Shown here: piece after piece, positions 18,890 to 45,543 of the stretch | Position numbering within the stretch: the stretch's first letter is position 1 | Layout: each line of letters opens with the position of its first letter | NCBI GenBank assembly: GCA_014376805.1 | Contig: JACMQU010000031.1 | Span: 41,550-105,549, forward strand | DNA length: 64,000 bases | Direction of reading: 5' to 3' | Source: Bacteroidia bacterium | GTDB taxonomy: Bacteria; Bacteroidota; Bacteroidia; UKL13-3 | Translations under genes and position numbers: made by a program | Notes under the pieces: generated by a model | The model's input: only the letters and a program-made list of their open reading frames with translations | Told to the model about the DNA's origin: nothing | Database searches by the model: none

Positions 18890-20203
18890 ATGTCAGAAGC
18901 AAAAACTGCTCTTCCTTACAAAGTAAAAGACATTACGCTTGCCGAATGGGGACGTAAAGAAATCCGCTTAGCTGAAGCTGAAATGCCCGGTCTAATGTCT
19001 ATCAGAAAAGAATATGGCGAACAACAGCCCTTAAAAGGTGCACGCATAGCTGGTTGTTTACATATGACCATTCAAACTGCGGTATTAATTGAAACATTAA
19101 AACACTTAGGGGCTGAAGTTACCTGGAGCTCTTGTAACATTTTTTCAACACAGGATCATGCTGCGGCGGCTATCGCATCTGCAGGTATTCCTGTTTATGC
19201 ATGGAAAGGCCAGAATGAAAAAGATTTTGACTGGTGTATTGAACAAACATTATTTGCATTTAAAGGCGGGCAGCCTTTAAATATGATCTTAGATGATGGA
19301 GGAGATCTTACAAATATGGTTTTTGACCGTTATCCTGAGTTAGCTGCTAACATTAAAGGCTTATCAGAAGAAACTACAACAGGCGTTCATCGTTTATATG
19401 AGCGCATGAAAAAAGGTACGCTTGTAATGCCTGCTATTAATGTGAATGATTCTGTTACCAAATCTAAATTTGATAACAAATATGGATGTAAAGAATCTTT
19501 GGTAGATTCCATACGCAGAGCTACAGATATTATGATGGCAGGTAAAGTTGCCGTAGTGGCAGGTTATGGTGATGTTGGAAAAGGTTCTGCCGAATCATTG
19601 CGTGGGGCTGGTGCCCGTGTGCTAATAACTGAAATTGATCCTATCTGTGCATTACAAGCCGCTATGGATGGATTTGAAGTTGTAACAATGGAGGAAGCTT
19701 GCACCAGAGCTAATATCTTTGTAACAGCTACAGGAAATTTAAAGATTATTGCTGATCGCCATTTTAAAGCAATGCGTGATAAATCTATCGTTTGTAACAT
19801 CGGCCACTTTGATAATGAAATTGATATGACCTGGTTAAACAGTAATCATGGTTCTTCTAAATTTACCATAAAACCGCAGGTTGATGTTTATAATGTTGAT
19901 GGCAATGAAATTATTATTCTCGCTGAAGGCCGCCTTGTTAACTTAGGCTGTGCAATGGGGCATCCAAGCTTTGTAATGAGTAATTCATTCTCGAACCAAA
20001 CGCTGGCTCAAATAGAACTGTGGACTAACCATGATAAGTATGAAAATAAAGTTTATGTGTTACCTAAACATCTAGATGAAAAAGTAGCTTATCTGCACTT
20101 AGCACACATAGGCGCAAAATTAACAGTTTTGAATCAGGAACAAGCTGATTATATTGGGGTTAATACAGCAGGTCCTTTCAAATCTGATTTATACAGATAC
20201 TAG
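18890..20203 (+). CDS. ahcY: Adenosylhomocysteinase
   Basis: [62 protein letters not shown]-term YKSDLYRY-like PFKSDLYRY. Confidence 0.98.
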
Positions 20204-27320: not shown

Positions 27321-28568
27321 TTATTGGGTTAACAATGGAACAACCAGAATGGATGTGGTTCCTTTATTTTTGGCACTCTCTATATAAAGTTCACCACCTA
27401 TCATAAATGCCCGCTCCTTCATTCCAATTAAACCCAGTGTCTTTTTTTCACTCACTTCATTCTGATCAAATCCCTGTCCGTCATCAACAATTGTCATAAC
27501 CAGATTTTTATTAATTAATTCAAAAGTAGTAATAATTTCTGAGGCATGGGCATGCCTGGCAATGTTAGTTAGGGTTTCCTGAAATATTCTGAAAATGCCG
27601 GTGGCAATGTTTTTTGAGAAAGGCAGTTCTTCCACATTATTATTAAATATACTTCTTATTCCGGAGCGTTTCTGATACTCCTCATTTTGCCATTCCAAAG
27701 CTGCTATCAAGCCCAGATCATCCAGTATATCGGGACGTAATTCTGTTGAAATTCTTCTAACTGAACTAATAGTCTGATCTATTAAGGATAGCATACCATT
27801 CAGCTTCATTTTTGTTGGCTCATCATGCCCTATTCTTTTATTTATCCAGGCCACATCCATTTTTAAACCGGTTAATTGCTGTCCCAGTTCATCATGAATT
27901 TCTCGTGCAATGGTTGTTCGTTCGTTTTCGCGGATATTTTGCAGATAGGCAGAGAGACTTCTAAGTTGTTCATTTTTTCTTAGAATTTCTTCTTTAGATT
28001 TTTTTATCTCTTCACTTGCATGATTTAATTTTGTAATATTCAACTGTCGTTCAATGGCAAAACGAATCACTCTTTCCAAGGTGCGGCTATCACTATCTCC
28101 TTTAATAAGATAATCCTGTGCACCTTCTCTTAATGCATTCATGGCTCCCTTTTCATCATGCATACCAGTAAGCACAATTATTGGGTTATCCGGAAAAAAA
28201 TTACGGATTGTTTTTACGGTATCAATTCCATAACAATCAGGCAAGGTGAGATCAAGTATAATTATAGAAATATTTTTTTTTGAAACTACATAGGCAATAG
28301 CTTCATTTAAAGTAGTAGCAAGCAACAAAGATTTTGCAGGAATTTTTATCTCTTCCAGCATAATTTTTATCAGTTCCATATCACCTATATTATCTTCTAC
28401 TAATAATATATGTGAATCTTTTTCCATAAAGCTTGATTTTAATCCCGGATCCCGCATAGGTTTAACAACATTTACATATACTTTATCAATACTATTTATC
28501 GACTTAATGAATGATCCAATTTCAAGATTCATATTTGCGAATTTAGTGAAATGTAATTTGTTACTCAT
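27321..28568 (-). CDS. Hybrid signalling protein: N-terminal REC + HisKA_3/HATPase histidine kinase
   Basis: ILLVEDNIGDMELIKIML...IIILDLTLPDCYG; HisKA_3 ERTTIAREIHDELGQQLTGLKMDVAWI; HATPase IFRIFQETLTNIARHAHASE...VDDGQGFD...GLIGMKERAFMIGG. Confidence 0.92.
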   Translation of the reverse strand: MSNKLHFTKFANMNLEIGSFIKSINSIDKVYVNVVKPMRDPGLKSSFMEKDSHILLVEDNIGDMELIKIMLEEIKIPAKSLLLATTLNEAIAYVVSKKNISIIILDLTLPDCYGIDTVKTIRNFFPDNPIIVLTGMHDEKGAMNALREGAQDYLIKGDSDSRTLERVIRFAIERQLNITKLNHASEEIKKSKEEILRKNEQLRSLSAYLQNIRENERTTIAREIHDELGQQLTGLKMDVAWINKRIGHDEPTKMKLNGMLSLIDQTISSVRRISTELRPDILDDLGLIAALEWQNEEYQKRSGIRSIFNNNVEELPFSKNIATGIFRIFQETLTNIARHAHASEIITTFELINKNLVMTIVDDGQGFDQNEVSEKKTLGLIGMKERAFMIGGELYIESAKNKGTTSILVVPLLTQ

Positions 28569-28612: not shown

Positions 28613-29623
28613 TTAAAGATCAGGACATTTTAATAATTTGCTCCTGTTACTTCTATGAGATTTAGTTTTGATTTGAAATACCATCGATAGCTCGTGAGAT
28701 CCTCCCATTGAGGTGCGGGATTTTGAAATGGTGGCATCATAGCTATAGCCTACCTTAAAAGCAGGCAGGCGCAAACCTACCAATAAAATAACAGCATCTG
28801 AATTTCGGGATGTTTGCCTAAGCCAGGCGCCAACTGTGAGTATTTGTTTTTTTAAATATAACCCTAAGTTCACCTGATAGAAATTCTGTTGTTGCATAAA
28901 TAAGATGTTGGGCGATAGAATCACCTTTTCTTCTTTATGACGTGAATGACTCATATACAGGTTGACACCGCCGTGCACTGTAGAGCGGCGTGGCAGCATT
29001 ACGGGCATATTAGTACCATCAACCACATTTAAAAACGACTGATTTGGCTGTAGCATATTATGCACCGCAATTCCACCATAGAACCCATTACTATAGGCAA
29101 GAATTCCGCAAGCCAGATTAGTAAAAGCAGTACCTTGAAAATTAAGATTTCTCAAATCATCTGAAGGCAAACCAGTAAAGCCTGCCATTTCATTTAACTG
29201 ATCTCCAAACCTCAACCTGCTAACATCATAACTTCTTTGTACAATAGATGCCTGAATTGCTGCATTAACTGCCAGATTTCGGTTCACCTGCATGTTATAG
29301 GCATAAATGCCACTCACACTTATCGTTTGTAAAAAACCATCGCCTGCCTGATCATAACTCACCAGTAAACCTAATCCACCATTAAATTTAGGTACGTTGC
29401 CATCTATAGAAAAAACCGTTGTTTTATAGTTGTTTTTTAAAGCTGTGTATTGATTTCGTATGCTGCTGCTCAGCCTGAGTTTTTTACCTTCACCTGCAAA
29501 AGCAGGATTTGTATAAAGTTGTGATGAATAGAACTGACTTAGCTGAGGATCCTGGGCCCACAGAGAATTGCCTGTTAAAACCGAAATAGTCATAAATAAA
29601 ATTCTGTGTATCGCTTTTTTCAT
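28613..29623 (-). CDS. Type IX secretion system membrane protein, PorP/SprF family
   Basis: QDPQLSQFYSSQLYTNPAFAGEGKKLRLSSSIRNQY...FSIDGNV...GGLGLLVSYDQAGDG...FKVGYSYDATISKS; classic PorP/SprF start and repeat of GLRLPAFKVGYSYD. Confidence 0.93.
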   Translation of the reverse strand: MKKAIHRILFMTISVLTGNSLWAQDPQLSQFYSSQLYTNPAFAGEGKKLRLSSSIRNQYTALKNNYKTTVFSIDGNVPKFNGGLGLLVSYDQAGDGFLQTISVSGIYAYNMQVNRNLAVNAAIQASIVQRSYDVSRLRFGDQLNEMAGFTGLPSDDLRNLNFQGTAFTNLACGILAYSNGFYGGIAVHNMLQPNQSFLNVVDGTNMPVMLPRRSTVHGGVNLYMSHSRHKEEKVILSPNILFMQQQNFYQVNLGLYLKKQILTVGAWLRQTSRNSDAVILLVGLRLPAFKVGYSYDATISKSRTSMGGSHELSMVFQIKTKSHRSNRSKLLKCPDL

Positions 29624-29694: not shown

Positions 29695-31986
29695 TTAATG
29701 AAAGTAATTATCCTTTGTTGTAAATGAACATCCCGATGTCATATTCACATACCGCAAAGCATAGGAGCCGGGTGTTATAAGGTTAATTGAATTACCTTCA
29801 TCCTTTATCTGGTTGCCGTTATATATCCATTCATATTTAATCTGATCTACTTTCACAGCATTCAGCATCGTACCTTTTTCATCTTTAAATACAAGCGGAT
29901 AAGTTCGTGGTGTACCTTTTCTTAAGGTAAAGCCGGAGGTAGCCTTTTCCGGATGAACAAACGGATCGGTGCCAACTACCCTTATTTTGTATTTTCCGGC
30001 CGGTAAACTGTCAGGTATCATGTATTCCATATTCCCCTCTTTTAAGTCAGAATGCAGAAGTACATTTCCATTATTAAAACTTTGGTTATCGAGCGTTAAC
30101 TGCAGTACTGCATGATTTGTTTTTCCAACCTGCCCGGTAAATTTAAAAGACAAACTAATTTTATCACCATGACAATAGGTATCTTTAATATCCCAGTTAA
30201 CGTAAAAGCCAGGCGTAAACTGTTCTGTTTGTAACTGATGGATATTATTTTCATTATTTACCAAAAACAACAATCCGGGATGCAGGAAAACAGTGTTAAA
30301 TTTTGCGGCTCCTTCATTAATTTTCGTCCATTCAATGCCTTCATGCGGATGAAAATAAATATCCCCGCTTTTAGTTAATACATAAAAACCTGTTGAATCA
30401 GCTTCCAATGAAATAATTGCTGAATCTAATAAGCCAAGGTTCATAGATGAATAGGTTTTTCCTTCATCATTTGTTTTCATTACACCTTTTTCAACCGATG
30501 AAATAAGTAAGGCATTGCAATGCTTTTTAAAATGGGCAATCCCCGTAATATGTTCTATAAATCCACTGCCGGCATATTCTTCCCACTTATCTTTTTTCAA
30601 ATCTTTTTTGTACACTCCTGAATTTGAAACCGTATAAAGTATCCCGTTATAGTTTCTCAGAAGGTATGTTGAAGAGGTAAGTAAACCCTCATTGATGACC
30701 GTAACCTTTGGATCATGATCAGCTATTTTGCCAATTTTTACTTTAAACATTCCTCTTTCGGAAGAACTAATATAAAGGCACCGGTCTAATAAAAGAATGG
30801 AGTTACACTCTATACCTATAAGATCCTTATTTATGTAAAAGCCAGAAGTGCTCACGTTAAAAGTAAGTAAACCATTCTCACAAGCAATAAAAATTTCCTG
30901 CCCGCTTTGTACTGCTGAATACATTTTTCCGGAAGCATCAGAAAGGTCAAAAAAAGTTTGTCCATTTCCTCCCTTTTTAAATACAAGACCTTCCGTTGTT
31001 ATGATAAAATCCTGATCAATACCCCCAATGAAATCAATAATATTATAGGATTTAATCTGACTTCCAATGTTGAGGGTGTTTTTTGTATTCATTTGATAAT
31101 AGATACACTGACCTTCCGCATCATTATACAATAAATTTCCGTTATCAAGTAATCTCACATTATAAATATCATCGCTCAAAACATCTATGTTTACTTTAGT
31201 TGCCAGATCAAAAGCAAAAATACCACCCGAATTTTTGTAAAAAAGTTTGTTGTTATAAAACCCCAGGATTCCGGTAATAGAGTCGGCCACATTTATTTCA
31301 TTATGCTTATCAATGCCTGTACTCAGAATTTTGAGGTTATTATTGATCAGATAAAAAATGGTATTATTTAAACCATACATATCCTTCACATAAAATACTG
31401 AATCAATTTTTACTATTTTTATATATTTATTTTCTTTGGATAATTTATACAAAAAATTATTTGCACAAACAGCATAAATATCTTCACCTTTTATCATCAT
31501 TTTAATAGGGAAGGGCGATTTGATAAAAGATTGATCTTTTAAGTTCATTAAACCATCAAAAAATATAACTTTTGTTTCATCACCGGCAGAGATGATGCCC
31601 TTTATGTACCGGTCCTTAAAATTATTAATCAGTTTCCATTCCTGTTTGTAGTTGTTATAAACAAATACATCATGATCATTCCATGCATACATATTGGCAG
31701 CATCCTTAAAAATACCGCTGATATTTGTTTTTTCATTCTTATTTCCACTTGCCTTATTTTGTTGAATATTTAAGCAATACAACCTGTTATTTTTACCCAG
31801 TACAAATAAATTATCATCCAGCATCTGTGCATCTTTTAAAATTAGCGATTGCGGTGTTTGATGCTGTGTACCCGACAGTACTGATGCTTTTGAAACATTC
31901 AATAAAGCAACAGCGATGATAAAAATAATAGCAATTATTCTGATAAAAATACCTGCTGCGCAAAATCTGGTATAAAGTAAATTCAT
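29695..31986 (-). CDS. Secreted protein with beta-propeller-like repeats and C-terminal Ig-like segments, function unknown
   Basis: Signal/TM N-terminus; repeated FFDGLMNL / IFYLINNNLKIL / GILYTVSNSGVYKKDLKKDKWEEY / VLTKSGDIYFHPHEGIEWTKI propeller-type strands; C-term YEWIYNGNQIKDEGNSINLITPGSYALRYVNMTSGC. Confidence 0.65.
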   Translation of the reverse strand: MNLLYTRFCAAGIFIRIIAIIFIIAVALLNVSKASVLSGTQHQTPQSLILKDAQMLDDNLFVLGKNNRLYCLNIQQNKASGNKNEKTNISGIFKDAANMYAWNDHDVFVYNNYKQEWKLINNFKDRYIKGIISAGDETKVIFFDGLMNLKDQSFIKSPFPIKMMIKGEDIYAVCANNFLYKLSKENKYIKIVKIDSVFYVKDMYGLNNTIFYLINNNLKILSTGIDKHNEINVADSITGILGFYNNKLFYKNSGGIFAFDLATKVNIDVLSDDIYNVRLLDNGNLLYNDAEGQCIYYQMNTKNTLNIGSQIKSYNIIDFIGGIDQDFIITTEGLVFKKGGNGQTFFDLSDASGKMYSAVQSGQEIFIACENGLLTFNVSTSGFYINKDLIGIECNSILLLDRCLYISSSERGMFKVKIGKIADHDPKVTVINEGLLTSSTYLLRNYNGILYTVSNSGVYKKDLKKDKWEEYAGSGFIEHITGIAHFKKHCNALLISSVEKGVMKTNDEGKTYSSMNLGLLDSAIISLEADSTGFYVLTKSGDIYFHPHEGIEWTKINEGAAKFNTVFLHPGLLFLVNNENNIHQLQTEQFTPGFYVNWDIKDTYCHGDKISLSFKFTGQVGKTNHAVLQLTLDNQSFNNGNVLLHSDLKEGNMEYMIPDSLPAGKYKIRVVGTDPFVHPEKATSGFTLRKGTPRTYPLVFKDEKGTMLNAVKVDQIKYEWIYNGNQIKDEGNSINLITPGSYALRYVNMTSGCSFTTKDNYFH

Positions 31987-32041: not shown

Positions 32042-33076
32042 TTATTTTAAAAGGGTAACTGATCCATTGAAGGAATAAGACTTACCGCTATTTCCGATAG
32101 CCTCTATTGAATATCCATAAGCATCGGATGGCAGAGCATCTCCTTTATCAAAACCATTCCATCCATCCAGTATCGAATAAGATTTAAAGATCTCTTCACC
32201 CCAGCGATTAAAAACAGTCATGCGGAATGTTTTTATGCCATGTCCAACCGCTTTAAATTCATCATTTAATTTATCACCATTGGGTGTAAATGCATTTGGC
32301 ATGAAGATATGTTCATCCTTAATGTTGATCATTTTAATAATCGAATCCCTGCATCCAGCATTGTTTACCGAAACAAGTTTTATATAAGCCTGTCCTGTAT
32401 CTATAAAAGTAACATTGATGTTTCGGGCCACAATTTTATTATAGGTAGATTTCTCCAGTTCCCAGCTAACATTATCAAGTGGACTGCCCATATAGTTGAA
32501 CAGTACATGCTGATCTTTGTAAAATACACTTATATCCGGGCTGAAGGATGCAACCGGATTTTTAACTGCTTTTATTTTTATTGGGAAAGAATCTGTCTGG
32601 ATCCCACAAACATTTGCAGAAATTCTTATCACCATGGAAGTGTCCCTTACTAATTTTATACTTATCGAGCTATTAGTATCACCGTTACTCCACAAGTACC
32701 GGTCTCCACCATTTCCCGTTATAATAACGGTATCATTGATACATGCCTGTGGTGGATAATTCACTTTAAAATTCTTACCTCTTATTAAAACAAATGCTTC
32801 AACTTGATCTCCCGCACAATTCAATATGTTTTTTTCGAGAACTGAAAGGTGGTATAAGCCCGGCTGGCTGAACCAATCAACAAGGATGGTTGCCTGACCA
32901 TTTCCGGAGCGGATCCTTCCACCATTAATATTCCATTGATAGGTTGATCCTGCATGTTGATCTACAGAATAGATAACATTTATATCTCCGGCACAAACTG
33001 TATCTATAATCTGTGAGCGAACTTCGCAGACGATGAACAGCAGGAGCAAAAGTGATATGTTAATTTTCAGAATCAA
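32042..33076 (-). CDS. PKD-like protein with gliding-motility-type (CHU_C) C-terminal T9SS domain
   Basis: GSTYQWNINGGRIRSGNGQATILVDW PKD-like; CHU_C: FMPNAFTPNGDKLNDEFKAVGHGIKTFRMTVFNRWGEEIFKSYSILDGWNG...SYSFNGSVTLLK. Confidence 0.93.
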   Translation of the reverse strand: MILKINISLLLLLFIVCEVRSQIIDTVCAGDINVIYSVDQHAGSTYQWNINGGRIRSGNGQATILVDWFSQPGLYHLSVLEKNILNCAGDQVEAFVLIRGKNFKVNYPPQACINDTVIITGNGGDRYLWSNGDTNSSISIKLVRDTSMVIRISANVCGIQTDSFPIKIKAVKNPVASFSPDISVFYKDQHVLFNYMGSPLDNVSWELEKSTYNKIVARNINVTFIDTGQAYIKLVSVNNAGCRDSIIKMINIKDEHIFMPNAFTPNGDKLNDEFKAVGHGIKTFRMTVFNRWGEEIFKSYSILDGWNGFDKGDALPSDAYGYSIEAIGNSGKSYSFNGSVTLLK

Positions 33077-33164: not shown

Positions 33165-33824
33165 TTAGTAATGTATAATTGCCGAGGTAGTTGGTTTTGG
33201 AAATACAGTAACTGATGCAGTACCTGAATAAGTTCCAGTGCAGCCAAACCTGTCTGTTAGTGTAGTTGCTACATATCCTTTTACACCAGGAGTTGTGAAT
33301 ACCTGAGAGTTGAAATTATACTTTGTTGAAGAAGTAATTACTGATCTGGTAGTTCCAGCTTCTGTGTATTGTACAGACCATGGAGCATAACCTGTAAAGT
33401 TCATTTCAAGCTTGTTTAAAGTTGTTGCTGAGTTTAAACAGATAGAATCCGTTCCGCTTAATACAACTGTTGGTGGAGCCAAACGTACTACCACTAACTT
33501 AACAGGATCACCCAAACAACCTAAGGTATTTGCTTCAACAACAGTAAGGGTGTCGATGCCCGGTGTAGCAGACCAGTTAACGGTAATAGAATCTGTTGTG
33601 CCTCCGCTTGTTTTTGTTCCACCACCACTAAAAGTCCAGGTGAAAGTACTGCCCGGTAAACCAGATATTTTATAAATTTTGTTTAAGGAGCCTGAGCAAA
33701 TTGAATCGGTTGTTGCTGAGCTTTGTGCATTAGCGTTTGCTGCTGCGAAAGTAGTTAATAATAGCATGGCAGCTATTTTACAAATTGACTTTGTTTTCAT
33801 ATTGATTGTAATTAAATTTTTCAT
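33165..33824 (-). CDS. Small secreted PKD-like protein (likely start 33800)
   Basis: Signal peptide MKTKSICKIAAMLLLTTFAAANANAQ; SGLPGSTFTWTFSGGGTKTSGGTTDSITVNWSATPG; ends PKPTTSAIIHY. Confidence 0.8.
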   Translation of the reverse strand: MKNLITINMKTKSICKIAAMLLLTTFAAANANAQSSATTDSICSGSLNKIYKISGLPGSTFTWTFSGGGTKTSGGTTDSITVNWSATPGIDTLTVVEANTLGCLGDPVKLVVVRLAPPTVVLSGTDSICLNSATTLNKLEMNFTGYAPWSVQYTEAGTTRSVITSSTKYNFNSQVFTTPGVKGYVATTLTDRFGCTGTYSGTASVTVFPKPTTSAIIHY

Positions 33825-34066
33825 GTGATTGTTTTTTTTTTAAGGTTTTTAATATTATTGTTTGTTGTGTTTGTTATTTGTTTTTTGGGTATAGAGTTTA
33901 GGAAGGATTTTAGCTAATATGTTCAATTAATTTATCCCGGACTCCTGGCTTTACACTGAATATTTTTTTGTTTTGTTACCAAAACGGTAACAGGTTTAGA
34001 ATGGATTCTTAATGATTGCATTGTTTTGTTTTTATTGTTATGTATTGCTTATTTTTTATTTCTATT

Positions 34067-37000
34067 TTAATAATGATATAGCGTTGAAGGTCCTGGTAAT
34101 GTTAATATGGTAATTGTCATAATTTTTGAGGCAAAACAACCATAGATATTGGTTTGAGTAACGGTTACATTACCTGTACCTGCTGCACCCCATAACAACG
34201 AAATCAGGTTAGTGGAACTGGTTCCAATAATATTACCACCTGCGCTTGACCATTGGTATGTACTACTGGCTACAAAAGGCACTGAATACACGTGTGTTTT
34301 TCTCGAGCATGGTGTACTATTGCCTGTTATTACCGGAACCGGAGTTGGATTTATTGTTACGTTTTTTGAAACGGTTGAATCGCATCCAAAAGAATTAACC
34401 TGTCTAATACTTACTGCTCCTATGCCTGAGGCACCCCATGTGATAAAACAGGCAGTGTCGGTACTTACACCTATTATTGTGCCACCACTTACTGTCCAGC
34501 TATATGTATTTCCCGACGCTGAAAAAACATAAAATCTGTTGCCTACAGTTGCACATCCGGTATTGGTGCCATTAATAGAAGGTACAGGCGTAGGCCTGAT
34601 AGTAACGCTTACCGATACTATTGAATCACATCCCAAACTGTTTGTTTGTTTTATGGTTGCTGTTCCTGTACCTGCAATACTCCATAATACAGTTATAGAT
34701 GAAGCAGTGTTTGATCCGGATATATTGCCCCCTGTTACAGTCCATAAATAGGTGCTGCCTGTTAAGCCTGCTATTGAATAAGATGCTTGTTTACCTGAAC
34801 AAACAATTGTAATTCCGGTTATAACAGGCACGGGCCTTGCCAGTTTAATTATTTGTTTAGCGATTGTACTGTCACATCCGCTGCCGCTTGTTTGTGTAAC
34901 AGTAAGAGTACCAATACCCACTAAACCCCATTTAACCTGTACAGTATTTGAAATAGTAGATCCTTGTATTACGCCGCCATTTGCTAACCAGATAAAAGTA
35001 TGTCCTGCAGTTGCATTAACAGAATAGGTAAGCAATGTATTTTCACAACTACTGTCTGCTCCATTTATTACCGGTGCAGGTGCAGGTTGAATGGTAATGC
35101 TCTCAAATACCGTGCTATCGCATCCTGTAGAAATAGACTGAGTAAGCAATACTGTTCCACTGCCCGATAAACCCCATTTTATCTGTACAGTATTGCCCCT
35201 GTTGCCTCCCATAAAGCTCCCACCAGTTGTGGTCCACAAATATGTATGACCGGCTACAGCAAGTGTGTTGTAGGTATAAATTCTGTTCTGACAGGTTAGG
35301 TTATTACCTGTAATTACCGGAGTAGGTGGAGCTAATATGATAATGTCTTTTGTTATGGTACTATCGCAACCAAATACATTGGTTTGTTTAAGCGTTAAAA
35401 ACCTGTTGGCTGCAATTCCCCATTTCACTGTTAATGTATTTAATGTGGCTGAACCTATAATTGTACCACCGGAAGATATGCTCCACAAATATGTATTGCC
35501 TGTAATTGAAGCAACAGAATAGGTGTAATTTTTATTTGCACATACACTATCATAACCACTCATCACGGGAACAGGTGATGGATTTATAAGGATACTTTTT
35601 GAAATGGTGGTATCACAATTTGTGGTTGTATATGTTTGTTTTAAAGATATAATTCCGGTACCTGCAACTATCCATTTTACAGTTACTGAATTTGTACCCG
35701 CACCTGATAAAATATTGCCTCCTGAAATCGTCCAGAGATATATACTTGCAGAAGGGTCTGATGGCACGGAATAGGTATAAGTATAGTTATAAGTGCATAC
35801 CGGCGATGGTCCTGAAATAACAGGTTTTGGTTTAGGATAAATTGATACCGGAATTGCTATATTTATAAAATCCATCAGTGTTTTACCGGAGCAACTTCCG
35901 TCCATAAATGTTCCCATTATCGCATTGCCCGCGCCTATCCAGTATAAAGAGCGGCTTAATGGTGCCTGATAAGACCATACAATGGAGTCGTCAACTAATA
36001 CCCTCGCTACACCTGATGCTGAATCATAACAAAAAGTATAGTATTTAAAATTGTCATCATTTGGTACTGTGTAAGTAGTTAATAATGGTCCAATATCCGC
36101 ATAGCCGCCGGCTCCGTTGTTTATTCTCATTTGAATACTAAGTTTACCACCAGTGATATAAAACCGCGTACCTCCCCTGTTAAAAAAATCAGCTTCGGCT
36201 TCATCTCTCTGAAAACTGAAAGTCATACACATTTTACCCCTGTCAAATATGGATCCGGGAATAGTTATATCAGCTCCTTTACTACTTCCGCAATTACTTG
36301 TAATCTGGTAACCGAAACCATTTGAATACGCATCAGTATCACTACTTATTGCATCGGGGCCAATTGTTGCTTTAGTTATAGGGTTTGAGTTCAGGTCAAA
36401 TCTTGAAATGGTTTGCAAACTCCCAATTCCTTTACATCCTGATACTGCTGTTTGTATCATATAAATATAACCGGGTCCTGCATTACCCCAGTTAACCGAA
36501 ATATTGGCTGTTCCCTGTCCACCGGCTATTGTTCCGCCCACTACATGCCAATCATAACTATTACCTGCTACTGCTGGTGTATTGTAAGGTATTCCTAACG
36601 TGTATTCGCATAAATTCAGGGAGCCGGTTATCATTGGTACCGGAGCCTGATTAATAGTGATGCTAACCGTATCTCTTGCAGGCGTGCATCCATTATTGCC
36701 AGTGGTTGTAAGTATAAGTTTAACAATCCCGGCATTTATCTCAGAAAGTGATGGAACATAAATTGCATTAAGGGTAGTATCATACGGAATAAATTTACCG
36801 GTACCGCCGCTCCACTTTCCACCTGTTGCAACCTGAATTCTGCCCCGTAAATTAACAGTGTTTATTGATGAACAAACGGTTGTATCATTACCGGCATTTG
36901 CAGTAAATGGCAAATTATTTACGGTAATTATGCTCGTATCTCTGGCAACAATACACCCTAAAGAATCTGTCATAGCAACACGGTAGGTACCTGCACCAAA

Positions 37001-37927
37001 TGTCTTCACCCTCGATGTATCATTTGTATTCCATAAATATTTATATGGAGCCAATCCACCTGTAGGGTTTGCAGTTAGTGCAAGTGTGGTGCCTCCTCCG
37101 TAACAAATTATGGGGTTTCGTGGTGTAATGGCAACTATTGGATTATCAACAAGTATTACATTAAAAGTATCACAGGTTGATGGGCTTGCACATGCTCCGG
37201 TTACATTACCGCAAACTTTATAAGTAAGGGAAAGCGGATATGAAATAGGCCCGGGTACTATACTAACAGAATCACAATTAGTGCGGCAGCTTAAATAACT
37301 ATTACTGATGGTAGTAGATGGTATTGATGTCCAGGTAAGACCGGCTGTTTCAAAACCTTTGGCTTTAATATAAATTCCGCATGCCGGTGAGCCTGCAAAC
37401 AATCCTTGTACTTTTGGCTTAGGAATAGCTTTAATCTGGTAAATATTTGAATTGCCGCCTGGTTTACAAAAAGTAATCCTGAAAGGACCGGTACCGATAA
37501 GACAAATAGGCTGACCAAAAGATAATGCCGGACCACAACCCACTCTGTAATTTAATGCCCCGCCTGGTATAGCTCCAGATATAATATCTAATTGTATTCC
37601 GGTTGAATTTACACTGAGCGTAATATTGAATTCTACACAGTTGGAAGTGGCGCAACAGTTACCTCCTCTTGTTATAGATGGACTTGTCCAGGTACTATCG
37701 TTATTTGCTGAAAGATTTACATTGTAGCTCGGTGATCCTACGCAGGGTTGTGCCTGAATTGGTTCAGACAGCATTAAGCTAAAAATAAAAATAAGTAACG
37801 TAAAAAAATTAAACTTCCATTTAGTATTCGTATTTGAAAACCTTTTACCAAATAACCTAAATGTAGCAACCTGTTCGGTAAGAACAAGTACTATATTGAT
37901 GATTATTATGGTTATAAGGAATTTCAT
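34067..37927 (-). CDS. Large secreted multi-PKD-like repeat surface protein (adhesin-like)
   Basis: 1286 aa; N-terminal hydrophobic segments; eight related modules of the form PVPVITGxxxxCxxxxxYSVxxxxGxTYLWTVSGGxIxGxxxxNxxxVxWGxAGxGxxxxxQTNxxGCDSTxxxxxTI; ends LPGPSTLYHY. Confidence 0.85.
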   Translation of the reverse strand: MKFLITIIIINIVLVLTEQVATFRLFGKRFSNTNTKWKFNFFTLLIFIFSLMLSEPIQAQPCVGSPSYNVNLSANNDSTWTSPSITRGGNCCATSNCVEFNITLSVNSTGIQLDIISGAIPGGALNYRVGCGPALSFGQPICLIGTGPFRITFCKPGGNSNIYQIKAIPKPKVQGLFAGSPACGIYIKAKGFETAGLTWTSIPSTTISNSYLSCRTNCDSVSIVPGPISYPLSLTYKVCGNVTGACASPSTCDTFNVILVDNPIVAITPRNPIICYGGGTTLALTANPTGGLAPYKYLWNTNDTSRVKTFGAGTYRVAMTDSLGCIVARDTSIITVNNLPFTANAGNDTTVCSSINTVNLRGRIQVATGGKWSGGTGKFIPYDTTLNAIYVPSLSEINAGIVKLILTTTGNNGCTPARDTVSITINQAPVPMITGSLNLCEYTLGIPYNTPAVAGNSYDWHVVGGTIAGGQGTANISVNWGNAGPGYIYMIQTAVSGCKGIGSLQTISRFDLNSNPITKATIGPDAISSDTDAYSNGFGYQITSNCGSSKGADITIPGSIFDRGKMCMTFSFQRDEAEADFFNRGGTRFYITGGKLSIQMRINNGAGGYADIGPLLTTYTVPNDDNFKYYTFCYDSASGVARVLVDDSIVWSYQAPLSRSLYWIGAGNAIMGTFMDGSCSGKTLMDFINIAIPVSIYPKPKPVISGPSPVCTYNYTYTYSVPSDPSASIYLWTISGGNILSGAGTNSVTVKWIVAGTGIISLKQTYTTTNCDTTISKSILINPSPVPVMSGYDSVCANKNYTYSVASITGNTYLWSISSGGTIIGSATLNTLTVKWGIAANRFLTLKQTNVFGCDSTITKDIIILAPPTPVITGNNLTCQNRIYTYNTLAVAGHTYLWTTTGGSFMGGNRGNTVQIKWGLSGSGTVLLTQSISTGCDSTVFESITIQPAPAPVINGADSSCENTLLTYSVNATAGHTFIWLANGGVIQGSTISNTVQVKWGLVGIGTLTVTQTSGSGCDSTIAKQIIKLARPVPVITGITIVCSGKQASYSIAGLTGSTYLWTVTGGNISGSNTASSITVLWSIAGTGTATIKQTNSLGCDSIVSVSVTIRPTPVPSINGTNTGCATVGNRFYVFSASGNTYSWTVSGGTIIGVSTDTACFITWGASGIGAVSIRQVNSFGCDSTVSKNVTINPTPVPVITGNSTPCSRKTHVYSVPFVASSTYQWSSAGGNIIGTSSTNLISLLWGAAGTGNVTVTQTNIYGCFASKIMTITILTLPGPSTLYHY
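34070..35829 (-). repeat. Seven tandem PKD-like protein modules (about 82 aa / 246 bp each)
   Basis: Aligned by eye from KPKPVISGPSPVC to the C-terminus; an eighth related module (PVPMITGSLNLC...) lies upstream, separated by a non-repeat domain. Confidence 0.85.
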
Positions 37928-38461: not shown

Positions 38462-39865
38462 TTAATCCTTTTGATCTGCAGCGGAAGTCTTTAACACAAT
38501 ACTTTTAATAACAGCATCCAGTTCATTCGCAGAACTAAGTATATAGTTTAAATATTCGTGTGTTTCATGTTCCTCTAGTGCATCAGAATTGAACAAATCA
38601 ACAATACCCATAATTCGCGCTAAAGGTGCTCTTACAACATGCGATTGTGTCCAGGCAATTTCTTTAAGCTTCGTGTTTTGATCTTCAATAGCCTGCAAGT
38701 GTTTGATTCGCTCGGTAACATCTCTTTCAATAGCAATAAAATGCGTATGTTCGCCTAAACCATTTGCCACAGGCGCAATGGCTAATTGCACCCAGTATTC
38801 TGATCCATCTTTATGGTAGTTTATTACTTCTAATTCGCAGGATTCACCTTTTCTTAAACATTCACTTAAAGCATTCAACTTATCTTTACTGGTTTTAGGA
38901 CCTTGTAAAAAACGGGGAGACTTTCCAATCACTTCGTTACTTAAATAACCGGTCATTTTGGTGAATGCGTTATTTACATAAACAATTGCCGGACCAGGTT
39001 CTCCAAGTGGCTCGAATGCCGTTATCATAACTGCATCAGTTGCATTAGTAATTACTGATTCGAGCAGTCTAAGCCTGTTTTCTTCTTCTTTTTGCCGTGT
39101 GATGTCCTGCATTGCTCCAATCATTCTGAGAGGTTCTGCATTCTCACCTGTCATTAAAAAACCTCTGTCGAATATATATTTATAAGAACCGTCAGCACAC
39201 CTGAAACGATATTCTATCTGAAGATGAACCTCGCCTTTCTCATACATTTCAGCAAGAGCTTCGGTTACTCTTTGTATGTCTTCCGGATGCAACTTTTCTT
39301 TCCACCAAACACCAATTTCGGCTATTTCACGGGATGAATAACCGAACATTTCATGAATGCCGTTATTGTATTGCATTTTGTCATTTACAATGTCAAGATC
39401 CCATATGGTATCACTAGTAGCTTTGGCCACTATTTCGTAGCGTTCATTGCTTTTCATCAAACTTATTTCAATGCGCTTTCGTTCTCTGCTATAAGCTATA
39501 CTTTTATAGAGCTGATAGGCATTTAATTCGTCTTTTAATAAGTAATCTGATACCCCAAGAGCTAGTGTTTTTACACCAAATTCTTTATCAGAATAACCCG
39601 TCAATACAATAACAGGAATCTGGCCGGCAAGAAGCAAAATTTCCCGCACCAGTTTATCACCACTCAAATCAGGTAAAGTTAAGTCGAGCAGAATTACATC
39701 AAAATCTTTCCTTATGAGCAATACTGACTGAGCTTCGGCAAATGATTTCGCACGGCTTAAAAGAGTAGATTTTACTTCTTCTTTCAAATAATCGTCAATT
39801 AATATAAAATCGCCCGAATTATCTTCAACAATTAAAAGTTTTAAATCCTGATTAGTAATAGTCAT
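38462..39865 (-). CDS. REC-PAS-PAS protein ending in a lone HisKA/DHp-like segment (no HATPase)
   Basis: LKLLIVEDNSGDFILIDDYL...DVILLDLTLPDLSG; PAS DTIWDLDIVNDKMQYNNGIHEMFGYS and TDAVMITAFEPLGEPGPAIVYVNNAFTKMTGY; tail LKEIAWTQSHVVRAPLARIMGIVDLF; protein ends before any ATPase N/G boxes. Confidence 0.88.
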   Translation of the reverse strand: MTITNQDLKLLIVEDNSGDFILIDDYLKEEVKSTLLSRAKSFAEAQSVLLIRKDFDVILLDLTLPDLSGDKLVREILLLAGQIPVIVLTGYSDKEFGVKTLALGVSDYLLKDELNAYQLYKSIAYSRERKRIEISLMKSNERYEIVAKATSDTIWDLDIVNDKMQYNNGIHEMFGYSSREIAEIGVWWKEKLHPEDIQRVTEALAEMYEKGEVHLQIEYRFRCADGSYKYIFDRGFLMTGENAEPLRMIGAMQDITRQKEEENRLRLLESVITNATDAVMITAFEPLGEPGPAIVYVNNAFTKMTGYLSNEVIGKSPRFLQGPKTSKDKLNALSECLRKGESCELEVINYHKDGSEYWVQLAIAPVANGLGEHTHFIAIERDVTERIKHLQAIEDQNTKLKEIAWTQSHVVRAPLARIMGIVDLFNSDALEEHETHEYLNYILSSANELDAVIKSIVLKTSAADQKD

Positions 39866-39866
39866 T

Positions 39867-40307
39867 TCAATTTTTTATTTTTGTGGGTAATTGAACTATA
39901 GAAATCCAGAAATTCTCAATATAAGATACAACTTTTAAAAAATCACCTACATCAACAGGCTTTGTTATAAAGCAGTTGGCATAATTTTGGTAAGAGAGAT
40001 GAACGTCATTTTCTGACGAGGAAGTAGTTAAAATAATTACCGGTATTTGTCTTAATTTTTCATTTGCCTTAATATTTTTCAGCACCTCATGACCATTCAT
40101 TTTGGGCAGATTTACATCTAGTAAGATCAGGTCAGGGATTTGCACATCCAGATATTTGCCATTTTTTTCTAAGAACTGGATTGCCTCCCAGCCATCTTTC
40201 ACAACAGATATTATATTGGAAATTTTACCTTCATTGAGGGCCTCGGTGGTGAGAAGAATATCACCGTCATTATCTTCTACTAAAAGGATATGTATAGGTT
40301 TTATCAT
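39867..40307 (-). CDS. Single-domain response regulator (CheY/Rcp1-like)
   Basis: IHILLVEDNDGDILLTTEALNEG...PDLILLDVNLPKMNGHEVLKNIK...VIILTTSSSENDV...CFITKPVDVGDFLKVV. Confidence 0.94.
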   Translation of the reverse strand: MIKPIHILLVEDNDGDILLTTEALNEGKISNIISVVKDGWEAIQFLEKNGKYLDVQIPDLILLDVNLPKMNGHEVLKNIKANEKLRQIPVIILTTSSSENDVHLSYQNYANCFITKPVDVGDFLKVVSYIENFWISIVQLPTKIKN

Positions 40308-40458
40308 TGAATACGATGGTTATAATTACAAAATTTACAGGTTGTTAATTGTTCAATAAGTTTTACCAAAAAAATTATTTGTCAGTGAATTATACGACAC
40401 ATAACTTCCTTATTCCGATTATAAATATAAATGAACATTTTCTAATAATCAGATTTTT

Positions 40459-43400
40459 TTATTCGTGCTTTAGTATCCTGGAGATGGTAAAGTAAAAAGA
40501 ACAACCTTTTCCCGGATCGCACTCTACCCACATTTTTCCATCGTGATTTTCTACAATTTTTTTGCATATAGCTAAACCTATTCCGGTTCCTGAATATTCA
40601 TCTTTATTGTGGAGCCTTTGAAAAACCGCAAATATTTTATCAAAAAACTGCGGATCAATTCCTATACCATTATCAGTAATCTCAAATTGCCAATGGGTGT
40701 CAGTCTCTATTGATCTGATCACAATCAAAGGTTTTGTATTTGGATGCTGATACTTTAGGGCATTCCCGATCAGGTTTTGAATCACCTGTTGAATTTGCGT
40801 TTTACGAGCTTCTATAACAGGTAAATTCTTCCAATCTAAAATGGCACCTTTTTCCTCCATAATAGTGCGATTTAGTTGCGCAACACCGAATAATAATTCA
40901 TTCATGTTTACACGATCATATTCATGTTCCCTTTTACCTACTCTTGAATATTCAAGGAGATCAAGAATTATTTTGCGCATTCGCGTTGCACCATCAACTG
41001 CAAAATATATGTACTGTTTAGCTTTATCATCAAGAATATCTTTATACTTTTTTTCGAGTTGTGTAAGAAAACTTGATACCATCCGCAACGGCTCCTGCAA
41101 ATCATGTGAGGCTACATAAGCAAACTGTTCCAGCTCCTTATTTGATATAGCTAATTCTTCAGCTCGCTTTTTAAGATCTTCATTTAAATGATGTAAAAGT
41201 ATCTCTGTTTCCTTTCTATGAGTGATATCCTGGGTAGCTCCTATCATTCTCAGAGCCTCACCATTTTCATTCCTGATGATAAATCCTTTATCGAATATAT
41301 AGGCATATTTACCATCAGCTTTGCGAAAACGATATTCATGTTCACATATGTCAATACCCGGATTCTTAAAATCGCTTTGTAGTTTCTCTAATGCACCCAT
41401 AATATCATCAGGATGGATTCTATTTTCCCAAAAATTATCTTCCTTTTTGGCTTCAACCGGATCATATCCGAAAAGGACTTTTAACCCCTGTCCCGTTCTG
41501 TAAACGCCTTTGTTTTTAACATCCCAGTCATAAATTGCATCGTTAGTAGCCTTTGATACCAGATCATATCTTTCATTACTAATAAGCAATGCCCTTTCCA
41601 CTAATTTATTCTCAGTTATATTTCTACTATAACAGGCTATACCAACAATCTCATTCTGTCCATAAATAGGATTAAAAGTTGTTTCCGTCCAGGATTCCGA
41701 TCTGTTAAATACGGAAGGCGAATATATTTCCTTTTTAAAAGATTCTCCAACTAATGACCTCCTGTAACACTGTTCCCAAAATTCTTTCAAAGCATCATCA
41801 AACATACCAGGCATCAATAAGTTATCACCTGGTTTTAATACCTTACCCGTGAAAGATAAAAATGAAAACAGAAATGCGTTATTGCCTGCAATCAATTTCA
41901 GATCTTTGCTAACACTCCAAATAAAATCTTCTGTGCTGTTAATGAGTGCTTCTTTATCTCTTCGTTCAAACTCCTTATACTGTTCCTCTTTTTTGCGTTC
42001 CGTAACATCTCTGATAAAAGCACAGAAAAACACTTCATTATCCTGTTTAATTGGCAAAATTGTTAACTCTATTGGAAACTCCTTTTTTGATTTATTTATA
42101 GCGGATAACTCCAATATTACATTTAACGAGGGCCCATGTCCTGTTTGTAAATAAACATCAATGCCTAAATCATGCAATTCACGCAGTGGCTCAGGAATAA
42201 TTATTTCAGAAAATATCCGGTTTACTACTTCCTCCTTTTTCCATCCAAACATTTTTTCTGCCTGAGGGTTCCAAAATGTAATTGCTCCTAAGGTATCTAT
42301 GCAAATAATTGCATCCAGAGCCGCATTCATTATCAGTCTGGTTTTTTCTTCCGAATTTCGCATTCCCAGTTCGGCAAGTTTACGGGAAGTAACATCTTTT
42401 GCTACGGCAAAAATTAACCCTTCACTTATCATTGGTGTTGATGTCCAGGAAAGCCACTTAAGTAATCCATCTTTAGCAACATATCGGTTTTCAAATGAAA
42501 AAACCTGTCTGCTCTCCGAAAGATTATTCATTTGTATATAAGTACTTTGTTGATCCTCCGGATGAACAAAGTGCGAAAAAGGTTTGCTCATTAACTCCTC
42601 TTTGGTGTAGCCCAATAAGTGTGTTAGAGCAGAATTGATTTTTTTAAAATACCCATCATTACCCGCAATACATAAAAAATCAGGAGAAAAATCAAAAAAT
42701 AAATTTAGTTCATCTTCTGATCTTCTTCGCTGGATTTCTGAACCTATATGGGTACCTGTTCTGGTAAGTAGTTCAACAAGATTTTTATCTTCCATTTCTC
42801 TTTTTTCAGAAAACAAAATCATTATGCCTACAACGTTATTGCCCTGTAAAAGTGGAACAGTAAAGGCTGATTGAAGACCGCTCTTAGCTGCTATTTTTTT
42901 ACGGTTAAAAATTTTCCCTTTTTGCAAATCGGTAATCCATATACTTTTTTTGTTTTTTAAGGTTAAACCTGTAAGGTTATTCTCATCGTAATTACAACTT
43001 AAATCTTTTGAATACTTTTCGAAAAATTTAACTTTTGCTGCTTTTGGATTTGAAGTGGTTGCGGCAATTTTTAATATAAGTTTATCAAAATCGGGCAGCC
43101 ATATTTCTATGTGATCCCATTGAACTATCAAGTTGATCTTTTTCAAAACATTATAAAGCACTGTGCTTAAATCTGTAGATTGAGATAGTATTTTCAGCGT
43201 TTCGCCAACAATTTCCCTTTCTTTATTTATTTGCAAAATTTTAGTAAGATCAGTTACCTGTATTAGCCGCAAAATTCGATTGTCAATAGAAATCCTGTTA
43301 CTAAAAACATCCACTTTAACTATAGTTCCATCTTTCTTCTGATGTATCGTTTCCAATTTGTAAGATTCAGACCCCTTATTAAATTCAATATTTTTTATAG

Positions 43401-45543
43401 TATTTTTCTTCTCCTTTTCCGGCCGGATATCCAATACGCTAATCTCCATCATTTCATTTTTAGTGTATCCGTAAAAAGTTAAGGCCGCCTGGTTAATTTG
43501 CACAAATTCAAATGTAAACTCATCATAAGTAAACACTGGATAAGGAATAAAATCAAACAAGGTTCTGTATCGCAATTCACTTGATTTTATCAGTTCTATT
43601 GCATTCACTTTTTCAGACACATCTCTGAAATTATTCACAATTGAATTAATCCCGTTTAAATGTAAAAGATTAATAATAGTCCCTTCTACATTTATAAAAG
43701 TATTATTTTTTTTTCTTATTCTTGATACCCAGTTAAATGTTTTACCCGGATTTTCTAAAACTGATTCACTCGTTTTAATCACCTTGGCCTTATCATCCGG
43801 ATGAACAAAATTAAAAAGTCGTTTGCCCAGAAGATCCTCTTCTCTATATCCTAATATTTTATATAAAGAAGGACTGAGATATTTATCATTTCTGTCTGCA
43901 TCCATTAACAATAGCATATCGTTACTATTTTCGATAAGCGTACGGAAACGCATTTCATTTATTTCCAGTTTATCTTCCGCTTCTTTGCGTTGGGTAACAT
44001 TTTTGAAATTGGCAACTATAGCATTAATACCATCAATATTTAACATATTGGTTAGAGTTCCCTCAACCCATATATAACTGCCATCCTTTATTTTTGTTCT
44101 GATAAGAGTAGGCAATTGAATGCCGGGCTTTAGAAAAGATTCTTTCAGTAATTCATTAACCTTGTGCATGTCATCAGAATGAATAATTTCCGTTAGCCTT
44201 CTTATGTTAGTGTAGCCATAAGTACTTGCTATTACCGGACTAATATATTCAATTTCTCCTTCACCGTTAATAAGAGAGATCATATCACTACTGTTCTCTA
44301 TAATTGCTTTAAAACGGTTTTCGCTTTTAATAAAATTTTTTTGAGATTTTTTCTTTTCGGTTATATCTGATGATGTTACAAATACTCCGGTAATGTTTCC
44401 ATGGTTATCACGTGAGGGCTTAAAAAGGTTTAAGAAGGTAACCGCATTACCATCCGGTAACACTATCTCTACTTCACTTTCAAGCGTATCGCCCACAAGT
44501 ACTTTTTTGTATATATCTGCTACAATTTCTCTACGACTTGATTGAGAATAATGGAGAACATTATCACCCTTTTTTACTGTTTTTTTGTAAATCTTTCTAT
44601 ATCTTTCTTCAAATTGTTTGTTACAAATTACGATTTCTAAATTAGTGTTAACGAGTACAAAACTTTCCTCAGTATTGTTCATCAGGAGATTCCACTCTTC
44701 CTCTGATTTTTTTCTCTCTGTAATATCAATAATGGTTGAGCTTGTTTTTTCTTCTCCATTTATATCTTTAAAAACAACAGATGAAAATTCACATGGAAAA
44801 TGCTCCCCATTTTTACGAATCGCTGTTAATTCTCCTTTTACCTGCCCTTCCTTATTTCTAATTGTTAAGAGTTCAATCAATGTCGCATCTGCCCTAAAAA
44901 GAGCATTTTCATGCAGTATTTTTAATTCATCAACCAAATAGCCAAACATTTTGCAAGCCTGCACACTTACCTCTAATATGCTACCATCACACTTACCCAA
45001 AAAAAAAGCAATCATCGAATTTTCAATAATCGATTTGTATTTATTTTCACTTTGCTGAATGAGTTGCTGTGTGTTTTTCATGATGCTTATATCACTCAAA
45101 GAAACTATTCTATATCTTTTGCCATCATCATCAGTTAATAACTGTGAACAAGATATTACATCAATAATTTTCCCGTTTTTATGTATAGCCTTTCTTTCCG
45201 TTGCCGGTAGAACTATTCCCTTAAAAAATTCAGCATGAATTTTATTAAGTAACTCACGAGATCCGGGCTCAATAACCATCGTAAAATTATTACCAGTCAG
45301 ATCCTCCCTGTTATACCCATAAATCTCACAAAAAGAATCATTAACGTCTGCGATTATTCCTTGTTCCGTAATAATGCATATACCGGTGTTTGTTAAATTA
45401 AATGCTGCCGCATGCAATTTCCCAAGATTAACAGAATCAACTTTGTTTGATGTGACCGGCGTTTCCGATCTATCCATTTTAGCAGAAAATTTGTGTTTAT
45501 TTACAGGTTTTTCCATAAAACATATTTCATTATTTACAAGCAC
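40459..45543 (-). CDS. Giant cytosolic histidine kinase: about 10 PAS domains, one GAF, HisKA, HATPase
   Basis: Repeated PAS starts (e.g. NRFKAIIENSSDMISLINGEGEIEYISP; MRFRTLIENSNDMLLLMDADRNDKYLSP); GAF LSTVLYNVLKKINLIVQWDHIEIWL...; HisKA FAYVASHDLQEPLRMVSSFLTQL; HATPase NLIGNALKYQHPNTKP...DNGIGIDPQFFDKIF...GTGIGLAICKKIVENH. Confidence 0.94.
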   Translation of the reverse strand: MLVNNEICFMEKPVNKHKFSAKMDRSETPVTSNKVDSVNLGKLHAAAFNLTNTGICIITEQGIIADVNDSFCEIYGYNREDLTGNNFTMVIEPGSRELLNKIHAEFFKGIVLPATERKAIHKNGKIIDVISCSQLLTDDDGKRYRIVSLSDISIMKNTQQLIQQSENKYKSIIENSMIAFFLGKCDGSILEVSVQACKMFGYLVDELKILHENALFRADATLIELLTIRNKEGQVKGELTAIRKNGEHFPCEFSSVVFKDINGEEKTSSTIIDITERKKSEEEWNLLMNNTEESFVLVNTNLEIVICNKQFEERYRKIYKKTVKKGDNVLHYSQSSRREIVADIYKKVLVGDTLESEVEIVLPDGNAVTFLNLFKPSRDNHGNITGVFVTSSDITEKKKSQKNFIKSENRFKAIIENSSDMISLINGEGEIEYISPVIASTYGYTNIRRLTEIIHSDDMHKVNELLKESFLKPGIQLPTLIRTKIKDGSYIWVEGTLTNMLNIDGINAIVANFKNVTQRKEAEDKLEINEMRFRTLIENSNDMLLLMDADRNDKYLSPSLYKILGYREEDLLGKRLFNFVHPDDKAKVIKTSESVLENPGKTFNWVSRIRKKNNTFINVEGTIINLLHLNGINSIVNNFRDVSEKVNAIELIKSSELRYRTLFDFIPYPVFTYDEFTFEFVQINQAALTFYGYTKNEMMEISVLDIRPEKEKKNTIKNIEFNKGSESYKLETIHQKKDGTIVKVDVFSNRISIDNRILRLIQVTDLTKILQINKEREIVGETLKILSQSTDLSTVLYNVLKKINLIVQWDHIEIWLPDFDKLILKIAATTSNPKAAKVKFFEKYSKDLSCNYDENNLTGLTLKNKKSIWITDLQKGKIFNRKKIAAKSGLQSAFTVPLLQGNNVVGIMILFSEKREMEDKNLVELLTRTGTHIGSEIQRRRSEDELNLFFDFSPDFLCIAGNDGYFKKINSALTHLLGYTKEELMSKPFSHFVHPEDQQSTYIQMNNLSESRQVFSFENRYVAKDGLLKWLSWTSTPMISEGLIFAVAKDVTSRKLAELGMRNSEEKTRLIMNAALDAIICIDTLGAITFWNPQAEKMFGWKKEEVVNRIFSEIIIPEPLRELHDLGIDVYLQTGHGPSLNVILELSAINKSKKEFPIELTILPIKQDNEVFFCAFIRDVTERKKEEQYKEFERRDKEALINSTEDFIWSVSKDLKLIAGNNAFLFSFLSFTGKVLKPGDNLLMPGMFDDALKEFWEQCYRRSLVGESFKKEIYSPSVFNRSESWTETTFNPIYGQNEIVGIACYSRNITENKLVERALLISNERYDLVSKATNDAIYDWDVKNKGVYRTGQGLKVLFGYDPVEAKKEDNFWENRIHPDDIMGALEKLQSDFKNPGIDICEHEYRFRKADGKYAYIFDKGFIIRNENGEALRMIGATQDITHRKETEILLHHLNEDLKKRAEELAISNKELEQFAYVASHDLQEPLRMVSSFLTQLEKKYKDILDDKAKQYIYFAVDGATRMRKIILDLLEYSRVGKREHEYDRVNMNELLFGVAQLNRTIMEEKGAILDWKNLPVIEARKTQIQQVIQNLIGNALKYQHPNTKPLIVIRSIETDTHWQFEITDNGIGIDPQFFDKIFAVFQRLHNKDEYSGTGIGLAICKKIVENHDGKMWVECDPGKGCSFYFTISRILKHE

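Follow-up and report, generated by a model that had tools for sequence, protein, structure and literature searches.

A conserved C-terminal I-x-H tail on operon-encoded secreted proteins of Bacteroidota and its possible role as a docking strand

Results and Discussion

Two neighbouring secreted proteins with a similar tail

Why should two adjacent genes encode secreted proteins of very different length that end, directly before the stop codon, in closely similar residues? The question is raised by an operon in the window, the whole 64,000-nucleotide stretch of Bacteroidia DNA analysed here. The larger protein, of 1286 residues (34067..37927, on the minus strand, as are all the features of this operon), consists of a unique N-terminal region, tandem PKD_6 repeats spanning about residues 698–1270 (34118..35836) and the tail LTLPGPSTLYHY (34070..34105; stop codon 34067-34069), so that the chain ends TITILTLPGPSTLYHY (...GPSTLYHY). 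The smaller protein, of 219 residues (gene3; 33165..33824), comprises a signal peptide, an N-terminal, acceptor-type PKD-like domain, referred to here as D1 (33426..33713; D1 HMM, E=3e-33), an Ig-like domain and the tail FPKPTTSAIIHY (33168..33203; stop codon 33165-33167), and ends SVTVFPKPTTSAIIHY (...TTSAIIHY). Its signal peptide was assigned by inspection, and the predicted mature N-terminus is QSSATTDSIC, from 33725. The 1286-residue protein is without an N-terminal D1.

The adjoining gene (gene4; 32042..33076), for which a TTG start is listed and the true start is uncertain, encodes a 344-residue protein. Its N-terminal domain is PKD_6-like and again a D1 (32726..33013; D1 HMM, E=7e-35), with the mature N-terminus QIIDTVC, and it carries a CHU_C, or T9SS type B, sorting domain (32054..32305; PF13585, 1.6e-14; TIGR04131). 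A PorP/SprF family outer-membrane protein, identified by Pfam and NCBIfam (28613..29623), is the probable carrier of this CHU_C protein. Between the two genes lies that of a 763-residue secreted protein (29695..31986) with neither tail nor D1 and with weak beta-propeller- or glycosylhydrolase-like similarity; a 716-residue apparent relative occupies the equivalent position in another locus, L084. Response regulators and large PAS-domain histidine kinases, recognised by inspection, are encoded on both sides of the operon (27321-28568 and 38462-45543, minus strand).

A preliminary description of this DNA had drawn attention to the shared tail and to the lack of a CHU_C or Por_Secre_tail domain on either protein. 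Both observations are borne out, and the phenomenon proves larger than was noted. Pfam identifies PKD_6 in the 219- and 1286-residue proteins and no match to PF13585 (CHU_C) or PF18962 (Por_Secre_tail) in either, and no T9SS sorting model of NCBIfam matches them. The organism itself uses the T9SS heavily, as seen from the 137 matches to PF18962, the type A sorting domain, in its genome. In the 219-residue protein, the tail lies beyond the last strand of the Ig-like domain (ASVTVF then PKPTTSAIIHY); it falls in no domain model of Pfam or NCBIfam and is not the final strand of a known domain. We found it undescribed in Pfam, NCBIfam and the literature searched, many subscription papers lying outside that search.

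Conservation of the tail

Related genomes contain about 18 loci with a full-length homologue of the small protein; the named relatives are metagenome-assembled Bacteroidota, and a scan of named genomes recovered only these. In 18 aligned homologues of the same family, Ile at position −4 and Tyr at position −1 are invariant, and homologues lacking the conserved last six to eight residues did not occur. Because the tails of other families end IYH, IFH, IYHN, IFHD and so on, the core is I-x-H; of the H-Y motif originally proposed, the conserved tail stands but the final Tyr is not invariant. Neighbouring genes for different proteins carry the tail or a variant of it, as in LYHY, IFSY, IIAY, ISAN, IQAY, INTY and ILSY. 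In general, the tail proteins have a signal peptide and no type A or type B domain, and after a proline-rich linker they end in I-x-H plus at most one residue, or in I-x-x-Y/N. They include PKD_6-repeat, LTD-like, CUB and Ig_7/PKD proteins, unrelated types that share only the operon.

The bare DNA pattern [I/L/F]-x-H-[YND]-stop is found 471 times in the organism's own genome versus 452 times in a reversed control; the two window tails alone could therefore be due to chance, and the case rests on homology and genomic context, which place the tail beyond chance. Among 265 non-redundant genes of the homologue loci, 58 end in [IL]xx[YN], of which 52 belong to tail operons and 6 do not; the tails of orthologues do not count as independent events, and the loose definition was widened once the variants (Y, N, TPTN, ISVY) appeared, the I-x-H ends of distant families being found tail-blind. 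Background ends were estimated from the fetched loci. By our tally, none of about 424 non-array genes ends in I-x-H(x) and eight end in [LV]-x-H(x). The other [IL]xx[YN] ending in the window, SDLYRY at 18890-20203, was rejected as a chance match, being presumably the ordinary terminus of an S-adenosylhomocysteinase.

Tail-blind and tail-first searches

A model of the small protein minus its last 12 residues, run on 395 genomes of the class, recovered 12 full-length orthologues in 11 genomes. All 12 end in I-x-[HKT] with at most one residue more, and 10 of them in I-x-H. These 11 genomes all lie within the 12 that have a full-length orthologue of the CHU_C protein; with a model of the latter, a clear gap separates full-length orthologues (E < 1e-80) from other CHU_C proteins of the 395 genomes. 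Outside the family, in families f38, f56 and f58, all six CHU_C orthologues adjoin an orthologue of the small protein, ending IYHN, IYH, IYH, IFH, IFHN and IQHN, and in four of the six loci a large PKD protein encoded after the anchor ends IYHD, IYHY, IQH or IQH. No tails were seen near non-orthologous CHU_C genes (L164-L170, short flanks). When CHU_C proteins with an N-terminal D1 were retrieved through the D1 sequence alone, tails were present upstream of their genes in nearly all loci, the exceptions being L125 and L129, whose genomes have a tail cluster at another site.

In the opposite direction, the DNA pattern T-[ST]-x-I-[YF]-H-[NDY]-stop gave a summed 62 hits in the 395 genomes versus 41 in the reversed control, and many single hits look like chance (L257-L261). 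Five loci contain two or three hits inside about 4 kb on one strand. These five and three further loci, which represent additional operons in other families, have one layout: tail protein or proteins, an adaptor with a tail and a CHU_C protein (cut off in L256), with PorP/SprF following the CHU_C gene in L248-L253. By Pfam, the tips of these operons include CUB and LTD proteins, and the adaptors include Ig_7 and PKD proteins. We conclude from the alignment of 18 homologues, the concentration of motif ends in tail operons and the searches in both directions that the tail is a real and widespread C-terminal module, the genuine tag that had been suspected.

Operon layout and the acceptor domain

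Running the D1 HMM on 29 loci from seven families revealed a rule of position. The tip has a tail and no N-terminal D1, the middle protein has a D1 and a tail, and the last protein has a D1 and a CHU_C domain and no tail. The rule fits most of the 29 loci, some of which are truncated, incomplete or split over contigs. The order of genes in f38 is adaptor, CHU_C protein, big protein, and tails and D1s still number two and two. In L248 and L249, three tails are set against two D1s; two D1-less tail proteins, one a CUB protein of ~1400 residues and the other of 320–330 residues, precede one adaptor there, which leaves room for alternative or branched tips. No match to the D1 HMM was obtained for the gene2 adaptors of L126 and L130. 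Three clusters of tail proteins (L089, L090 and L092) have no adjoining CHU_C gene; their genomes encode a CHU_C/D1 protein elsewhere (L132, L134 and L135), preceded by tail proteins of its own (IIAN, IISVY).

The mature N-terminus of the anchor, Q-x-[IF]-D-T-[VA], hardly varies: its Q, D and T are the same in all 12 aligned rows. In acceptor D1s, 5–10 residues lead from the mature Gln, directly after signal-peptide cleavage, to the first Cys. The reference for the missing strand is the internal linker of PKD_6 repeats, such as those of the 1286-residue protein. In 71 internal repeat units, P-x-P-V-I-x-G lies 5–11 residues before the first Cys, with I/V-x-G invariant and the Gly present in 71 of 71. 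Since just 5–10 residues precede the first Cys of the acceptor D1, the P-x-P-x-I-x-G strand is absent from it or cut short, and the Pfam PKD_6 match in acceptors begins at profile positions 10–17. As judged from sequence, the acceptor domain appears to lack an edge strand. The tails score like the internal-repeat strand (PSSM AUC 0.90–0.95 versus 498 other C-termini), a similarity that is partly expected because proteins ending just after a PKD domain keep the start of the linker. A tail and a D1 joined together scored no better against the PKD internal-repeat HMM than did a D1 with random C-termini.

I-x-H is not the ending of gene2-type tails or of those with a final N, although some of these face an acceptor of the same type. 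Homologous tips end QIISVY in L134 and L135, where the CHU_C gene is directly next, and INAN or INSN in L126, L127, L130 and L132, where a gene2 adaptor lies between. In L248-L256, most tip tails have I-Y-H and most tails of CHU_C-facing adaptors I-F-H, a hint of position-specific pairing.

A docking model

Docking of the tail to the next protein is the best fit to these data, because a strand-poor PKD-like D1 stands at the start of the CHU_C proteins of the operons and of nearly all adaptors; head-to-tail docking would call for such an arrangement, in which every protein except the last has a donor and every one except the tip a strand-poor acceptor. We are thus inclined, on balance, to regard the tail as a docking strand in a donor-strand-like chain that ends at the CHU_C anchor. 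The tail of one protein would insert into the D1 of the next as its missing edge strand, giving a non-covalent head-to-tail chain of tip, adaptor or adaptors and CHU_C protein, held on the cell surface by the CHU_C domain and its PorP/SprF carrier. The proposed order in the window is 1286-residue protein, 219-residue protein, 344-residue CHU_C protein, PorP/SprF. Type B proteins bind PorP/SprF proteins at the surface (PMC9143113), so a chain with a CHU_C protein at its end could be retained there, and it would probably build a multi-part surface appendage. The idea that the tag is recognised by a linked partner survives where the partner is the next protein, including the CHU_C protein. Recognition by PorP/SprF is not supported as a rule, since no such gene is adjacent to the tail loci L085, L086 and L182-L187, though it may be encoded elsewhere.

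AlphaFold2 models of read-through fusions, in which adjacent genes that are in frame and separated by a short gap were translated through the stop codon, weakly support docking. In the gene2–gene3 fusion from L087 (mean pLDDT 74), T-A-Y of the upstream tail (residues 227–229) is modelled as a short beta strand, the signal-peptide linker has pLDDT < 50 and the downstream adaptor's own, partnerless tail is coil. In the tip–anchor fusion from L134 (mean pLDDT 79), I-S of the tail QIISVY (residues 92–93) forms a two-residue strand. The block near the tail has pLDDT 53–65 in these models, the partner strand is not readable and the tether artificially favours pairing in cis. Also counting against the model are the joined tail and D1 sequences, which lent it no support, the surplus tail in L248 and L249, the gene2 adaptors without a D1 match in L126 and L130, and the tails that depart from I-x-H.

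More tentatively, we suggest that one T9SS type B signal might export or anchor the whole pre-assembled chain, the CTD-less proteins hitching on the CHU_C protein through tail-in-domain docking. This would constitute a widespread class of T9SS multi-subunit appendage, missed because a recognisable signal is present only on the last subunit. If docking is correct, it would give a function and an order to many secreted Bacteroidota proteins that match no functional family, and would offer a way for proteins that have no T9SS signal to remain surface-bound. The pairing of I-x-H at the stop codon with Q-x-x-D-T-x-C at the next mature N-terminus would then serve as a genome rule for finding tip, adaptor and anchor subunits.

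Alternative explanations

The main rival to docking is that the T9SS itself, or a PorP/SprF-type shuttle, reads the tail as a signal for secretion or sorting, one that would form a class besides types A, B and C, the signals described in PMC10202324. Such a signal would account for passage across the outer membrane, which is otherwise unexplained for proteins with a signal peptide and no type A or B domain, and it agrees with the likeness of tails within a locus whatever acceptor they face (TPTN/TPTN in L102, INAN/IIAN in L126, all HD in L248). It leaves the strand-poor D1 at the start of the non-tip proteins unexplained, however; the known T9SS signals are whole beta domains, and several tail loci have no neighbouring PorP/SprF gene. 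We consider this reading unlikely. That the tail caps its own last domain, or makes homo-oligomers, is suggested by its place directly after the last Ig-like strand, but unrelated last domains precede the same tail, and the adaptor's own tail is coil in a model that includes its own domains; we judge it quite improbable.

Still less weight can be given to the tail as a vestigial inter-domain linker from a multi-PKD protein split into several genes. P-x-P-x-x-x-I does resemble the linker before internal PKD_6 repeats, but a functionless remnant would decay, whereas I-x-H at the stop codon has been kept in different families, and also on CUB and LTD proteins, with the linker Gly changed to His. 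The least probable explanation is a processing or covalent-attachment site of a sortase-like kind. C-terminal processing is known in the T9SS, where PorU cleaves off type A domains and a lipopolysaccharide anchor takes their place (PMC10202324). Against a parallel with the tails, nothing is conserved beyond the motif, and the tail loci showed no linked gene for a protease or a transpeptidase. The acceptor begins with Gln, and in Bacteroidota such an N-terminus is expected to carry a pyroglutamate block.

Comparison with known systems

Proteins with a T9SS type B CTD (CHU_C, PF13585/TIGR04131) and PorP/SprF carriers include the pairs SprB–SprF and PG1035–PorP (PMC9143113 and PMC10202324). The tail operons resemble these systems in that the last protein of the chain has a CHU_C domain and PorP/SprF is encoded near its gene in the window and in L248-L253; they differ in that the tail proteins have no CHU_C domain. 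The pairing of a tail with an N-terminal acceptor was not found in the accessible parts of these two sources. In the sprC-sprD-sprB-sprF operon of F. johnsoniae, which is arranged similarly, genes for gliding proteins come before sprB, which encodes a CHU_C adhesin, and sprF, which encodes a PorP/SprF protein. SprD was considered as a tail protein and set aside as unsupported; a published primer that lies close to its end encodes, in the assumed frame, GKMAIVK (PMC9870892).

Donor-strand exchange in type V pili (FimA, Mfa1) is proposed to work through a C-terminal strand that one subunit lodges in a groove of the next (PMC5954841). The chain put forward here from sequence would likewise run, on the surface of a Bacteroidota cell, from a tip through an adaptor to an anchor, and a conserved putative donor segment is present at the terminus of the preceding subunit, as in donor-strand assembled subunits. 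Type V pilins are Rgp-processed and polymerise, whereas the tail operons encode PKD/Ig-like proteins with a signal peptide then Gln, a short fixed I-x-H and a CHU_C anchor. The tail proteins have no FimA/Mfa fold match in Pfam and, by inspection, no lipobox Cys, the signal peptide being followed by Gln. A Foldseek search with the fused adaptor model gave as its closest match the Aureispira grappling-hook protein GhpA (PDB 9flp, 9fly and 9flw); GhpA is one giant chain, whereas in the tail operons the domains are distributed among several genes.
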